The notes below the pieces were generated by a model, which saw only the letters and a list, made by a program, of their open reading frames with translations, had not been told where the DNA came from and ran no database searches. Both the position numbers and the translations under genes were made by a program. Shown piece by piece: positions 3,772 to 58,024 of a stretch of 64,000 bases of DNA. Numbering within the stretch: position 1 is the first letter of the stretch; the number at the start of each line of letters is the position of its first letter. This DNA is from an uncultured Collinsella sp. (GTDB lineage Bacteria; Actinomycetota; Coriobacteriia; Coriobacteriales; Coriobacteriaceae), in contig CASEEV010000012.1 in assembly GCA_949287065.1 (NCBI GenBank), positions 1-64,000 on the forward strand, in the 5' to 3' direction.

Positions 3772-3870
3772 GCAAGACTACGCAGCAAAGCGGGGTTACC
3801 GACTCAATATTGCCGGTAACCCCGCACACCTGCGTAATCTTGCTGCAAAGCCGTGCGTCTGCGCAGTCTT
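3772..3870. repeat. Inverted word array GCAAGAYTACGCA around a nested hairpin
   Basis: In the gap between two convergent genes, GCAAGACTACGCA (3772-3784) is matched by its inverse TGCGTAATCTTGC (3831-3843), and a third partial inverse copy TGCGCAGTCTT sits at 3860-3870. Between the first two lies a 10-bp perfect stem, CGGGGTTACC (3791-3800) with GGTAACCCCG (3815-3824). The array could fold as a nested hairpin and may act as a bidirectional terminator, although no clear T tract follows. The same word recurs at 53768-53926. Confidence 0.75.
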
Positions 3871-50955: not shown

Positions 50956-53643
50956 CTACTTGGCGTCTGCCCAGGTAACGCCGGTTGATGCCTCGGCGAT
51001 GAGGGGCACGCGCAGGCGCACGACGTTCTCCATTGTGTCGCGCACGAGCGCGATAAGCGCGTCGACCTCCTCCTCGGGGCACTCGAAGTCCAGCTCATCG
51101 TGAATCTGCAGGATGAGGTGCGCTTGGAGCCCCGCCTCGCGCATGCGGTGCGGCACGTCGACCATGGCGAGCTTGATGATGTCGGCCGCGGTGCCCTGCA
51201 TGGGGTGGTTCATGGCCGTGCGCTCGCCGAAGCCGCGCTGCGCCGGGTTCTTGAGCTTGAGCTCCGGGATGGGGCGCTTGCGGCCGAACATGGTCTGCGC
51301 GTAGCCCGTCTGCTTGGCGTCGGCCACGGTCTGGTCGAGGTAGCGGCGCACGCCGGGGTACACCTCGAAGTAGCGGTCGATCATCTCGCGCGCCTCGGCC
51401 ATGGGAATGCCGAGCGACTGCGAGAGGCCGTACGCCTGCTGGCCGTACACGATGCCGAAGTTAACGGCCTTGGCGCGGCTGCGCAGCTCGCGCGTGACCT
51501 CCTCGACCGGCACGCCGAAGACGCGCGAGGCGGTCTCGGCGTGAAAGTCCTCGCCCTCGTTGAACGCCGCCACCAGGTGCTCGTCGCCCGAGAGGTGCGC
51601 GAGCAGCCTGAGCTCGATCTGGCTGTAGTCGACCGCCACGAACACCTTGCCCGGGCCCGCCGAGAACGCCGTGCGCACGGTCTTGCCCAGCTCGGAGCGC
51701 GTGGGGATGTTCTGCAGGTTGGGGTTGGACGACGAGAGGCGCCCGGTGGCGGTGACCGTCTGGTTGAACGTGGTGTGCACGCGCCCGTCGCGGCGGCGCA
51801 GGCCGCCCAGCGTGTCGAGGTACGTGCTCTTGATCTTGGCCTTCTCGCGGTACTCGAGGATGAGGCGCACGATCTCGTGGTCGCGCGCAAGCTCCTCGAG
51901 CACGCGAGCGTTGGTGGAATAGTAGCCGCGCTGCGTCTTCTTGAGGCCGCGCGTGGGCAGGCCCATCACGTCGAAGAGCACGTGGCTGAGCTGCATAGGG
52001 CTCGCGATGTTGAACTCCTCCCCCGCGAGCTCGTGAATGCGCGCGGCGAGCGCGTCGATGTCGGCCCCGAGCCCTTCCGAGAGCGCATGCAGGCGCTCCG
52101 GGTCAACGAGCATGCCGTTGCGCTCCATGAGGGCGAGCACCGGCACGAGCGGCATCTCCATCTCTTCCATGAGGCGCAGGCTGCCGTCGTTCTCGAGCGC
52201 GGCGCGCAAGGGCTCGTGGGCGCGTTGGGCAACCACGGCGGCAACGGCTGCGGGGCGTACGTCGTCGTCTTCTGGCAGCATGAGGCCCAAGTAGCGGTCG
52301 GCCAGGTAGCCGGGCTCAAAGCCCGTGCGAATGGAATCGAGCAGGTACGCGGCGACCGTGGTGTCGAAGATGCGGGACGGGTCAACGTCGAGCAGATCGA
52401 TCTGCGCCGGGTCGGCGGAGTCGACCGGCGCGAGCTCGTGGAGAAGCTCCTTCACGTCGGGCGACACCACGCGCCCGGCTGAGAAGAGCTCGCCGAGCAC
52501 GCCTGCGATCTCGGCCTCGTCGAAGCGCATGAGGGACTTCTCGGACGCCACCCACAGCTGGTGGGTCGTCGCGAAGAGCGCGCCCTCCTCTTGGTCGTCG
52601 TCGAGCACGCAGGCGAGCCACTCGTCTGCTGCCATGGCGCGCACGAGCTCGGCGAGCGCCGCCGAGCCCTCGACGGACGCCGGCACCTCGAGGGCAGAGG
52701 TGCCCGAGCCGGCGGCGTCGCCGCCGTCGACGAGCGCGAGAAGCCGCGTGGCGAGCGTGGTGATGCCGAGCGCGCCGAGCGCGGCGCGGGCCTCGGTCGC
52801 GTCGAAGCTGGGGAAGCGCACCGCGTCAAAGTCGCAGCTCACCGGCGCGTCCTTGCGGATGATGGCGACCTGCTTGGAGATGCGCGCGTCCTCGATGTGC
52901 GCGCGGAGGTTCTCGCCCATCTTGCCCTTGACCTCGTCGGCGTGCTCGATGACGCCCTCGAGGCTGCCGTACTGCGCGATAAGCGCCGCCGCCTTCTTGG
53001 GGCCGATGCCGGGAACGCCGGGAATGTTGTCGGAGGTGTCGCCCTTGAGGCCGTAGAAGTCGGGGATAAGGTCTGCCGTGACGCCGTTGTAGGCCTCAAC
53101 GACCTCCTCGGGCGTGACGATCTTGACCTCCGAGAGGCCGCGCTTGGTGCCGACGATCTTCACGTGGTCGGTGGCGAGCTGGTACATGTCGCGGTCGCCG
53201 GTGACGAGGTACATGTCGTAGCCGGCGGCCTCGCCCTGTGCGCCGAGCGTGCCCAGGATATCGTCGCCCTCCCAGCCCTCGCACTCCTGAATGGGCACGT
53301 TGAGAGCGCGCAGCACGTCGTGGATCATGGGGAACTGCTGGCGGAGCTCGTCGTCCATGGGCTTGCGCTGGGCCTTGTACTGAGTGAGCATCTCCATGCG
53401 CACGCGCGGCTTGCCCTTGTCGAACGCGCACACGATGCCGTCAGGATGGAAGGCGTCTACGAGCTTGAGCAGCATGTTCAAGAAGCCGAAGATGGCGTTG
53501 GTGGGCCGGCCGTCGGGCGCGTTCATGGTAGGCGGCACGCCGTGGTAGGCGCGGTGCATGAGCGAGTTGCCGTCGATAACGGCGATGATCTTGCGCGCGG
53601 CGTCCTCGGCGGCGGGTGCGGCGGGTGCGGTGGCGTCAGGCAT
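50956..53643 (-). CDS. polA: DNA polymerase I
   Basis: An 895-residue polymerase for repair and Okazaki fragment processing. The N-terminal 5'-3' exonuclease (about 20-300) has DGNSLMHRAYH, YKAQRKPMDDELRQQ and GLKGDTSDNIPGVPGIG. The central 3'-5' exonuclease-like domain (about 315-500) lacks the usual DxE motif (VLDDDQEEG instead of FDTET), so proofreading is probably lost. The polymerase domain has motif A VAVDYSQIELRLLAHLSGD, motif B RAKAVNFGIVYGQQAYGLSQ and motif C IHDELDFE. AGAGGA lies just before the ATG. Confidence 0.96.
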   Translation of the reverse strand: MPDATAPAAPAAEDAARKIIAVIDGNSLMHRAYHGVPPTMNAPDGRPTNAIFGFLNMLLKLVDAFHPDGIVCAFDKGKPRVRMEMLTQYKAQRKPMDDELRQQFPMIHDVLRALNVPIQECEGWEGDDILGTLGAQGEAAGYDMYLVTGDRDMYQLATDHVKIVGTKRGLSEVKIVTPEEVVEAYNGVTADLIPDFYGLKGDTSDNIPGVPGIGPKKAAALIAQYGSLEGVIEHADEVKGKMGENLRAHIEDARISKQVAIIRKDAPVSCDFDAVRFPSFDATEARAALGALGITTLATRLLALVDGGDAAGSGTSALEVPASVEGSAALAELVRAMAADEWLACVLDDDQEEGALFATTHQLWVASEKSLMRFDEAEIAGVLGELFSAGRVVSPDVKELLHELAPVDSADPAQIDLLDVDPSRIFDTTVAAYLLDSIRTGFEPGYLADRYLGLMLPEDDDVRPAAVAAVVAQRAHEPLRAALENDGSLRLMEEMEMPLVPVLALMERNGMLVDPERLHALSEGLGADIDALAARIHELAGEEFNIASPMQLSHVLFDVMGLPTRGLKKTQRGYYSTNARVLEELARDHEIVRLILEYREKAKIKSTYLDTLGGLRRRDGRVHTTFNQTVTATGRLSSSNPNLQNIPTRSELGKTVRTAFSAGPGKVFVAVDYSQIELRLLAHLSGDEHLVAAFNEGEDFHAETASRVFGVPVEEVTRELRSRAKAVNFGIVYGQQAYGLSQSLGIPMAEAREMIDRYFEVYPGVRRYLDQTVADAKQTGYAQTMFGRKRPIPELKLKNPAQRGFGERTAMNHPMQGTAADIIKLAMVDVPHRMREAGLQAHLILQIHDELDFECPEEEVDALIALVRDTMENVVRLRVPLIAEASTGVTWADAK

Positions 53644-53767
53644 GGCGGGTTCCTCTCGATTGTTCTGCTGCCCACCAGTCTACCCGCCCGCGCGGACACG
53701 CGCCACGCCCAATGCCGCGCAGCTCCCAAGTCCCACGAGAAGCCCCGCGCCGGCGCTGCGCGCCCCT

Positions 53768-53926
53768 GCAAGATTACGCATCCCGGCGGACCTGGCCGCT
53801 AGATTACGCATCCGTGCGTTTTAACCGCAAGATTACGCATCCTGCCGTATTTATCGGCGTCGCTAGATCGGATAAACCGTTTGGGTGCGTAATCTTGCGG
53901 CACATCCGACGCGCTGCGTAATCTTT
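53768..53926. repeat. GCAAGATTACGCATCC array, both orientations
   Basis: Direct copies at 53768-53783, 53798-53813 (GC-TAGATTACGCATCC) and 53827-53842, at 30 and 29 base spacing, and inverted copies at 53883-53898 and 53915-53926. It lies just upstream of polA. The same core word occurs at 3772-3870. It holds no open reading frame of its own. Confidence 0.85.
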
Positions 53927-54001
53927 CGGACAAACTCGGCGCGCTCAGCAAACTCGCGGAAACGTCAACGTATCAATTAGTAAGAAAGAGAGTCGCGAGA
54001 T

Positions 54002-54165
54002 AAAAAACAGGGGCTCGCCCGCGTCTTCGGCAGGCGGAGCCTGAACCTGAAGGCGCGTTCGCCGTGGCGAGCCCCTCAACGTGGCGATGCCGGTAATTTC
54101 GCCCGGGAAAGGATTGGGCGCTTGTCCGGATCAGCAAAGGATCTGCTTCGTTCCTCATCACGTCG
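54002..54165 (-). ncRNA. Candidate small RNA with strong terminator (unrecognised)
   Basis: A long terminator-like hairpin on the minus strand has outer arms GGGGCTCGCC and GGCGAGCCCC (54010-54019 and 54067-54076), an inner imperfect stem and a T tract (TGTTTTTT) at 54002-54009. No minus-strand gene lies upstream for 3.4 kb (the nearest is at 57443), so it would end an independent short transcript. A -10-like CATAAT on the minus strand (54172-54177) predicts a transcript of about 160 bases. I do not recognise it; SRP RNA, tmRNA and 6S RNA motifs were not seen. This also describes part of the 676-base gap 53644-54320. Confidence 0.5.
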
Positions 54166-54250
54166 CCTGTGATTATGCCCGCGACAGATGGACATATCTT
54201 GAAGATACGCAGCAAACACCTATGAGGTTCCCGTCAAAACACAGAGACAC

Positions 54251-54290
54251 CATACTTGCCCCCGTCGAACAGCATACTTGTACGTACAAT
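54251..54290 (+). promoter_or_regulatory. Candidate promoter and operator of the AraC-family gene
   Basis: CATACTTG occurs at 54251-54258 and 54273-54280, 22 bases apart (two helical turns), just upstream of a -10-like TACAAT at 54285-54290. AraC-type proteins often bind direct half-sites spaced this way, so self-regulation is suggested. Confidence 0.5.
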
Positions 54291-54320: not shown

Positions 54321-55205
54321 GTGACAAAAACCGTCAGCAACACCGCCGTGAGCGCAGACGGGCTCGAGCTCGTCCCGCACGGCACCGAGCCTTTTCCCGT
54401 GGAGGTCTACGAACTCGACCTCCCCACCTATACCGTGCCGTGGCATTGGCACGGAGACTGGGAGTACGTGCTCTGCACCGGCAACCGCACCCTGTGCCGA
54501 ACGCCCGAAGGCGACATCGTGCTCGATCCCGGGTACGGCCTGTTTATCGGACCGCGCATGATCCACGAGGTCACCGCCGCAAGCACCCGTTCGAGCATCC
54601 GCTCGATCGTGTTTGACCCCCGGTTCGTCGCGTCCGAGAGCAGCATCATCTGGGAGAAGTACGTGTCGCCTGTTGCCGGCATGGGCACCGTAAAGCTCCA
54701 TCCCGATAACCCCTGGCAGTGGGACGTGATGCACGAGCTCTGCAACGCGTGGCATTATATGGACCAAGAAGCGCCCGGCTACGAGATCAAGTCGCGCCAG
54801 GCCCTCGAGAACGCCCTGTACCTGCTGTCTGGCCACACCGAGCTAACCCGTACGAGCACGTCTGAGAAGGCGCGCCGCTCAACCGAGCGGCTCGAGCTCA
54901 TGCTGCGCTACATCGAGCGTCACTTTGGCGAGCGCCTCACCGTTGCCAAGATCGCGGCGAGCGCCTCGGTGAGCGAGAGCGAGTGCCTGCGCTGCTTCAA
55001 GTCCGTGCTGCGCACCACCCCCAACCGCTACCTGCGCGAGTACCGCCTGCTCAAAGCCGAGGAGCTTTTGGTTTCGACCACCGACACCGCGGCCGACATC
55101 GCGGCTGTCTGCGGGTTCTCGGACGCCGCGTACTTCACCAAGCTCTTCCGCGAGGCAAAAGGCGCCACGCCCATCGAGTACCGACGCGACGCCAGCCGCG
55201 CGTAA
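54321..55205 (+). CDS. AraC-family transcriptional regulator
   Basis: A 294-residue DNA-binding regulator. The N-terminal cupin domain (about 20-160) includes PWHWHGDWEYVLCTGN and VLDPGYGLFIGPRMIHEV. The C-terminal double helix-turn-helix (about 190-290) shows RYIERHFGERLTVAKIAASASVSESECLRCFKSVLRTTPNRYL and GFSDAAYFTKLFREAKGATPIEYRR in parts. The GTG at 54321 is chosen because AAGAAGGG lies 8 bases upstream and it gives the normal family N-terminus; the frame is open for 80 codons further upstream. It is 37 bases ahead of the alcohol dehydrogenase gene and probably regulates it. Confidence 0.9.
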   Translation: MTKTVSNTAVSADGLELVPHGTEPFPVEVYELDLPTYTVPWHWHGDWEYVLCTGNRTLCRTPEGDIVLDPGYGLFIGPRMIHEVTAASTRSSIRSIVFDPRFVASESSIIWEKYVSPVAGMGTVKLHPDNPWQWDVMHELCNAWHYMDQEAPGYEIKSRQALENALYLLSGHTELTRTSTSEKARRSTERLELMLRYIERHFGERLTVAKIAASASVSESECLRCFKSVLRTTPNRYLREYRLLKAEELLVSTTDTAADIAAVCGFSDAAYFTKLFREAKGATPIEYRRDASRA

Positions 55206-55242: not shown

Positions 55243-56484
55243 ATGAACGACTTCAGGTTTTTCTCCCCCACCCGTTTCGTCTTTGGGCGCGGAGCCTGCG
55301 ACCGCACCGGAGAAGAGCTCGCCGCGCTCGGCTACAAGCGCGCGCTCATCGTGTACGGCCAGGGGTCCGTGGTGCGCACGGGCACGCTCGACCGCGTAAA
55401 GGCATCGCTCGACGCCGCGGGCGTGGCCTACGAAGAGCTCTCCGGCGTGCGCCCCAACCCCGAGATCACCTCGGTGCGCGAGGGCGTCAAGCTCGCGCGC
55501 GACTTCAGCGCCGACGTGGTGCTGCCCGTGGGCGGCGGCTCGGCCATGGACGCGGCCAAGGCCATCGCGCTCGGCGCGACCTACGACGGCGACGTGTGGG
55601 ACTTCTGGCGCAAGCGCGCGGTACCCGCCGACCGCCTGCCGGTTGCCTGCGTGGTCACCATTCCCGCCTCGGGCTCAGAAGCCTCCAACTCCAGCGTCAT
55701 CTCAAACGACGAGGAGCACCTCAAGTGCGGCCTCGGCACCGACCTCAACCGCCCCGTGCTCGCCGTCAATGACCCGGAGCTCACCTTCACGCTGCCGCCC
55801 TACCAAACGGCCGCCGGCGTGACCGACATGATCGCCCACATTATGGAGCGGTTCTTCTCGGGCCAGCCGGGCGTGGCGGTGACCGACAACATCGCGCTCG
55901 GCATGATCCGCGCCGTAATGGATGCCGCCCCGCGCGTGATGGAGAACCCCGAGGACTACGATGCGCGCGCCAACATCATGTGGGTCGGCACGCTCGCGCA
56001 CAACGGGCTGGCGGGCCTGGGACTCGGCAACCCCGGCGGCCGCGACGGCGACTGGACCTGCCACGGCATGGAGCATGAGCTTTCGGCCTTTGACACGAGC
56101 ATCACGCACGGCGCCGGCTTGGCCGTGATCTTCCCCGCGTGGATGCGCTACGTATGGCGCGAGCACCCCGAGCGCTTCCTCGAGTTTGGCCGCCAGGTCT
56201 TTGGCATAGAGCCCGTTGACCCCGCGGTCGACGACCTCAGCGGCATCGACGAGGAGATCACGCCCGAACGCGCCGTTGCCGACGCTGTTGAGGAGACCAT
56301 CGACGAGCTGCAGGAATTCTTCGTGAGCCTCGGCATGCCCCGCACGCTCTCGGAGTTTGGCATGACGGCCGAGGACGTTGAGAAGCTCCTCCCCGGCCTC
56401 AAGATCAACCGCGGCGAGAAGTTCGGCTCGTTTATGCAGCTGACCTTGGACGACGCCCGCCAAATCTACTTGAGCGCGCTGTAG
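55243..56484 (+). CDS. Iron-containing alcohol dehydrogenase, YqhD/BDH type
   Basis: A 413-residue group III dehydrogenase that reduces aldehydes, probably with NADPH. The nucleotide loop is GGGSAMDAAKAIAL, the metal ligands are carried by AGVTDMIAHIMERFF (Asp, His), GDWTCHGMEHELS (His) and ITHGAGLAVIFPAWMRYV (His). Substrate range is probably short aldehydes such as butyraldehyde or methylglyoxal (family inference). GAAAGGAA lies 6 bases before the ATG. Downstream of the AraC gene, it completes a regulator-enzyme pair. Confidence 0.92.
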   Translation: MNDFRFFSPTRFVFGRGACDRTGEELAALGYKRALIVYGQGSVVRTGTLDRVKASLDAAGVAYEELSGVRPNPEITSVREGVKLARDFSADVVLPVGGGSAMDAAKAIALGATYDGDVWDFWRKRAVPADRLPVACVVTIPASGSEASNSSVISNDEEHLKCGLGTDLNRPVLAVNDPELTFTLPPYQTAAGVTDMIAHIMERFFSGQPGVAVTDNIALGMIRAVMDAAPRVMENPEDYDARANIMWVGTLAHNGLAGLGLGNPGGRDGDWTCHGMEHELSAFDTSITHGAGLAVIFPAWMRYVWREHPERFLEFGRQVFGIEPVDPAVDDLSGIDEEITPERAVADAVEETIDELQEFFVSLGMPRTLSEFGMTAEDVEKLLPGLKINRGEKFGSFMQLTLDDARQIYLSAL

Positions 56485-56585: not shown

Positions 56586-56666
56586 GCGGACCCAAACGGA
56601 CGTTTCGCATATTGGTACGGACCCGAACAGACGCTTCTGCCTGTAAAACCGTCCGCTTGGGTCCGC
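56586..56666. repeat. GCGGACCCAAACGGACG array, both orientations
   Basis: Copies at 56586-56602, 56617-56633 (one-word drift) and an inverted copy at 56649-56666, at about 31-base spacing. It fills most of the 269-base gap between the alcohol dehydrogenase and the SRAP gene. Confidence 0.75.
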
Positions 56667-57442: not shown

Positions 57443-57778
57443 TTATTTGCTCTTGCGAGCGTCAGTCACGAACACGCCAACGCGGACCTGATGCCACGGG
57501 CTGCGCTCGGGCGCAACCTGCTGGACTATGCACTCGAACGCGTTAGCGTGCCCGAAGAAGAGCATGGTCGCAAAGGGCTCGTTGCCGTCTTCGGGAACAT
57601 AGCCCAGTCGCTTGCCCTCATAGTACAGAGCGATGGCCGACGGATCGTGCGGGTTGTCAGGCTCGGCAACCATCTCAAGATGCACGCCCGGCTTGAGCTT
57701 ATCGAGCACCAGGGCGCCTTCTCCAAACTGAAACCCTGCAATACAAAACGAAGCAAGAACGCGCGACGGCTGATACAC
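57443..57778 (-). CDS. HIRAN-domain protein
   Basis: A protein of about 111 residues made up almost wholly of a HIRAN-type domain: VLASFCIAGFQFGEG, the DKLKPGVHLEMVAEPDNPHDPSAIAL stretch in two parts, and GKRLGYVPEDGNEPFATML. HIRAN domains bind DNA ends or damaged DNA and usually sit in helicases; here the domain stands alone, as in some bacterial and phage proteins. A GTG at 57778 is chosen because GGGAGG lies 6 bases upstream; the frame continues to 57841. The function is unknown. Confidence 0.72.
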   Translation of the reverse strand: MYQPSRVLASFCIAGFQFGEGALVLDKLKPGVHLEMVAEPDNPHDPSAIALYYEGKRLGYVPEDGNEPFATMLFFGHANAFECIVQQVAPERSPWHQVRVGVFVTDARKSK

Positions 57779-58024
57779 AACTGCCTCCCAACCTCGCTCG
57801 GCCCCGGCAGCCGCAAACGCTGCCAAGAGGGCCGAAACCACCTGTCAGAGAGAGCGTAAACCCCGGCGCGGACACGAATACGGAGCTTATGGTGCACTCC
57901 AGATGCCTGCTTGGCACTCTATGTGTTGGAAAAGCTGTTATTGGCGATTCAGAAGGAAGATCGCTCCCAAGGGAACAAGCAATGGAAAACCGTAAAAGAC
58001 CTTATGCATCTAGCGCACAGTCTT

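Follow-up and report, generated by a model that had tools for sequence, protein, structure and literature searches.

A putative small RNA gene ending at an orphan terminator upstream of polA in an uncultured Collinsella

What does a strong transcription terminator serve where no gene leads into it? The question is raised by the 680 bp gap between polA and an AraC-type regulator gene in a 64,000-nucleotide stretch of DNA (the window) from contig 12 of a draft genome of 2.08 Mb. The terminator is on the minus strand of this gap and is termed an orphan because a minus-strand gene upstream is absent for 3.4 kb; the closest gene-like minus-strand open reading frame is at 57443-57841. The original prediction had pointed to the terminator, to the empty 3.4 kb and to a CATAAT box resembling a -10 element, and all three are borne out here. 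It had also proposed a small regulatory RNA of the AraC unit. The features of the locus are listed in Table 1, and the minus-strand sequence in the gap reads AGGGGCTCGCC...GGGCGAGCCCCTGTTTTTT. On balance, these features point to an independent minus-strand small RNA gene of ~165 nt, most likely a trans-acting regulator and not one that acts in cis on AraC or polA. Judged by its gene content and polA relatives, the bacterium would be a gut Actinobacterium of Coriobacteria type. Small RNAs in this group of gut bacteria seem little described, and dedicated work on them was not found in the open literature searched.

Table 1. Features of the polA-AraC region and its flanks (positions in the window; G002 is a sister species)
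Feature	Position	Strand	Remarks
polA	50956-53643	minus	
-10 box of polA, TAGACT	53677-53682	minus	downstream of the terminator; GTAGACT upstream of polA in 29/30 family loci
Terminator U-tract, TTTTTT	54007-54002	minus	6 T here; 7 T in G002
Terminator hairpin, a single long stem with internal loops and no branches	54009-54076	minus	-42 kcal/mol, z -4.0; 0 differences to G002
5′ structured domain, closing stem CGACGUG/CACGUUG and two inner arms	54077-54165	minus	fold z -2.2; same in G002
Predicted small RNA, ~165 nt	54002-54167	minus	ends predicted from the -10 box (start) and the U-tract (end)
-10 box CATAAT	54172-54177	minus	5/6 to TATAAT; conserved in G002 with preceding GGG; rare in the window
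Conserved 10-mer CAAGATATGT, holding -35-like AAGATA (54195-54200)	54192-54201	minus	identical in G002
Probable -10 box of the AraC gene, TACAAT	54285-54290	plus	consensus match only
AraC-type regulator, HTH_18 and AraC_binding domains	~54321-55205	plus	
Iron-containing alcohol dehydrogenase (Fe-ADH)	55243-56484	plus	after the AraC gene

The full terminator hairpin was obtained by folding; a simple pattern scanner picks up only a poor inner version of it. The outer 5′ arm begins at 54075 (GGGGCTCGCC) and the 3′ arm finishes at 54010 on the minus strand. The fold consists of an outer helix of 11 bp and an inner one of 15 pairs, with an energy of -42.2 kcal/mol, and none of 200 shuffled sequences, relative to which the z value was calculated, was equally good. 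Of the 25 hairpins with a trailing T-run detected across the window, only one has a better stem energy than this one. No T-run is present on the plus-strand side, and the structure is therefore a one-way, minus-strand terminator. With this hairpin and the U-tract, both conserved, the RNA unit has an intrinsic terminator of its own. The genome has a single copy of the hairpin, which rules out a repeat family.

The CATAAT box (54177-54172) lies 96 bases ahead of the outer arm of the terminator. The exact hexamer is found in only four copies in the whole window, on either strand, and -10 boxes of CATAAT grade number 34 on both strands (128 kb of strand), which corresponds to an expectation of 0.035 per 130 nt. 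AAGATA, spaced exactly 17 nt from CATAAT, matches TTGACA at three of six positions and is a weak -35 element by consensus. Seven of the 17 bases of the promoter spacer differ from those of the sister species G002, while the 10-mer (0/10) and the -10 box with GGG (0/9) do not differ at all. A drifting spacer between two kept boxes would be the expected mark of a promoter in use.

The RNA has two predicted domains, one that begins at the predicted start and the terminator that follows directly after. Comparative folding across relatives, which had been put forward as a check, gave the same fold in G002, the one sister genome compared, and all 53 pairs common to the two RNAs are kept. Of six differences within the RNA, a single one affects a pair, where G-U is replaced by A-U, and the rest are in unpaired columns. 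The retention of pairs is compatible with the fold but is far too little as proof, and the comparison of these two closely related genomes displayed no covariation at all. A small protein was also considered as the product and ruled out: an 80-amino-acid frame that crosses the RNA (54215-53973) continues past the terminator hairpin; in G002 its start codon ATG reads AAA, and the frame is shifted by a single-base indel in the T-run.

Stepwise substitution counts relative to G002 place the onset of conservation at the promoter boxes rather than at the AraC gene. The transcript together with the -10 box differs at 7 of 187 positions, compared with 17 of 52 in the stretch upstream of the -10 (Fisher P 6e-8). 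The terminator plus 18 nt (53994-54098) has no differences in 105 positions, against 14 of 78 at polA fourfold sites (P 3e-6). Considered separately, the 5′ part of the RNA (7/73) does not evolve significantly more slowly than the polA fourfold sites (P 0.16), and good conservation is seen in intergenic DNA nearby as well (3/117 before polA, and an identical repeat element of 141 bp). A stand-alone non-coding RNA is nevertheless supported because promoter boxes, structure and terminator are conserved while the spacer and the upstream DNA diverge.

The main rival explanation is that of a lone terminator that insulates polA. It would halt transcription, antisense or leaky, that runs leftward from the side of the AraC and alcohol dehydrogenase genes, or would be the remaining tail of an ancestrally lost gene, and a short RNA would be a by-product. 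That the hairpin is the best-conserved part of the unit and the 5′ part only moderately conserved favors this explanation, as does the position of the terminator, which in both genomes has polA on one side and a divergent promoter region on the other. It leaves unexplained, however, the conserved -35-like and -10 boxes at their 17-nt spacing with a diverged spacer between them, as well as why conservation sets in at the -10 and why the 5′ fold has been retained. We regard a lone terminator as unlikely, if an alternative of some weight.

The RNA unit is present in two of 67 family genomes, this one and that of G002. It was not found in the remaining 65 by BLAST or with a covariance model, which was built from the two sequences and run against all 67. 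Among three other species of the genus, G002 alone has the unit, and the remaining two have unrelated DNA ahead of polA. A BLAST search of 399 genomes of the order detected, outside this genome and G002, only pieces of 17-50 bp, mostly of the GC-rich arms, which would be the chance level given the number of genomes. Exact patterns of the unit were absent from viral contigs.

That polA occurs without the unit elsewhere in the family also speaks against a second alternative, a polA leader with a conditional terminator. In such an attenuator or riboswitch the closing stem and the terminator would sense a signal and allow read-on into polA. The unit is on the same strand as polA, whose start is 360 bp downstream, and a closed, aptamer-like domain with a terminator immediately after it would suit this role. 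Yet no Rfam riboswitch matches, and a repeat element is situated between the terminator and polA. The polA promoter box, based on consensus and on the conservation of GTAGACT, is 0.3 kb past the terminator and not upstream of it; because of this the RNA unit is not a needed polA leader. A role as leader is very improbable.

The repeat element before polA is a copy, at 53766-53930, of a dispersed palindromic repeat that is also found at 3775-3840. It consists of AAGATTACGCA units with a 29-nt period that run in one direction and are then inverted around a loop. Exact units number 59 here and 59 in G002; two further species of the genus and a reversed control yielded none. The spacers vary between copies, but within one and the same copy they look complementary to each other (e.g. 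L095), which would suit retention of the hairpin rather than of its sequence, in a REPIN-like manner. The copy at 53766-53930 includes the 141 bp that are identical to G002. A second short intergenic repeat with two orientations, CGGACCCAAACGGACG, is represented by three units after the alcohol dehydrogenase gene (56587-56665). In another sister species (G003), the locus upstream of polA (L035) has a third repeat family of similar layout with another key sequence (about TATCTGTCGAGAAGAA), and it also has an apparent CRISPR-array end (TGCTCCCCGCGCCAGCGGGGATGATCCCC).

The gene order in G002 is polA, RNA unit and alcohol dehydrogenase, with the AraC gene missing. Regulation of the AraC unit in cis, suggested by the divergent and adjoining position of the RNA in this genome, is the least credible of the alternatives, as the RNA is kept in G002, whose corresponding locus has no AraC gene, no overlap is predicted between the two transcripts, and a BLAST search of the Firmicutes loci of AraC relatives detected no such sequence. 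The predicted RNA start and the likely AraC start are divergent, with >100 bp between them. Of the regulatory RNA that had been proposed, the small RNA is supported, with promoter boxes, structure and terminator all conserved in G002, and its assignment to the AraC unit is not.

The AraC gene itself (54321-55205) has its best relatives, of those found, in Firmicutes metagenome-assembled genomes, with 60-63% identity. These relatives adjoin an apparent sugar O-acetyltransferase gene and not an alcohol dehydrogenase. Because the G002 locus is without the gene and the closest relatives are in Firmicutes, a recent horizontal gain is suggested. A perfect 12-bp palindrome, TTGTACGTACAA, at 54278-54289 covers the presumed AraC promoter and is a possible operator.

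The reading that we prefer is thus that of a small RNA gene, probably lineage-specific. The hairpin and the box spacing are both present in this genome and conserved in one sister species; transcription, the RNA ends and any regulatory role are what we infer from them. RNA polymerase with the housekeeping sigma factor would start at ~54167, 5-7 nt past CATAAT. The 5′ domain would be transcribed first and would close on itself via CGACGUG/CACGUUG, the 68-nt terminator hairpin would be made next, and release at the U-tract near 54002 would leave an RNA of ~165 nt. This RNA might pair with mRNAs made elsewhere or bind a protein. Action in trans is the default inference because a cis role suits neither of the flanking genes. 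With its boxes and ends placed, the candidate is a ready probe, and the locus also illustrates that an orphan terminator and one sister genome can distinguish an independent RNA gene from a leader or a regulator acting in cis.

Comparison with known RNA families yielded no credible match in Rfam at the gathering threshold or at a relaxed one. A weak match to BjrC68 (RF02353; E 0.026, 18.9 bits against a cutoff of 39 bits) was taken as chance, since it is far below the cutoff and is carried by the generic GC-rich terminator. 6S RNA (RF00013) is likewise an intergenic RNA of similar length, but it folds into one long hairpin with a bubble, whereas the RNA described here has two domains; it was ruled out, the only 6S-like match of the genome being on another contig (C83).

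In its general design the unit resembles the intergenic small RNAs that sRNAPredict and sRNAscanner predict from an orphan promoter and a terminator, i.e., lone boxes 12-18 nt apart, a terminator 40-350 nt downstream and no open reading frame (PMC2916834). For the present candidate, one sister genome provides a footprint in addition. With respect to location, the closest likeness is to Spot 42, alpha-r7 and sX13, which are small RNAs of other phyla found next to or downstream of polA (PMC3771888). They too are stand-alone structured RNAs that adjoin polA and are restricted in lineage (PMC3771888). They are downstream of polA, whereas the present unit is upstream and limited to 2/67 family genomes, and no sequence or Rfam match between it and these RNAs was detected. 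The likeness in position serves as a lead, not as evidence of kinship. A bolder reading, which we consider doubtful, is that the unit encodes a lineage-specific regulatory RNA that acts in trans and is, at the polA locus, an independent counterpart to Spot 42, sX13 and alpha-r7, one whose long hairpin would be kept letter for letter by the binding of a partner, beyond its function in stopping transcription.
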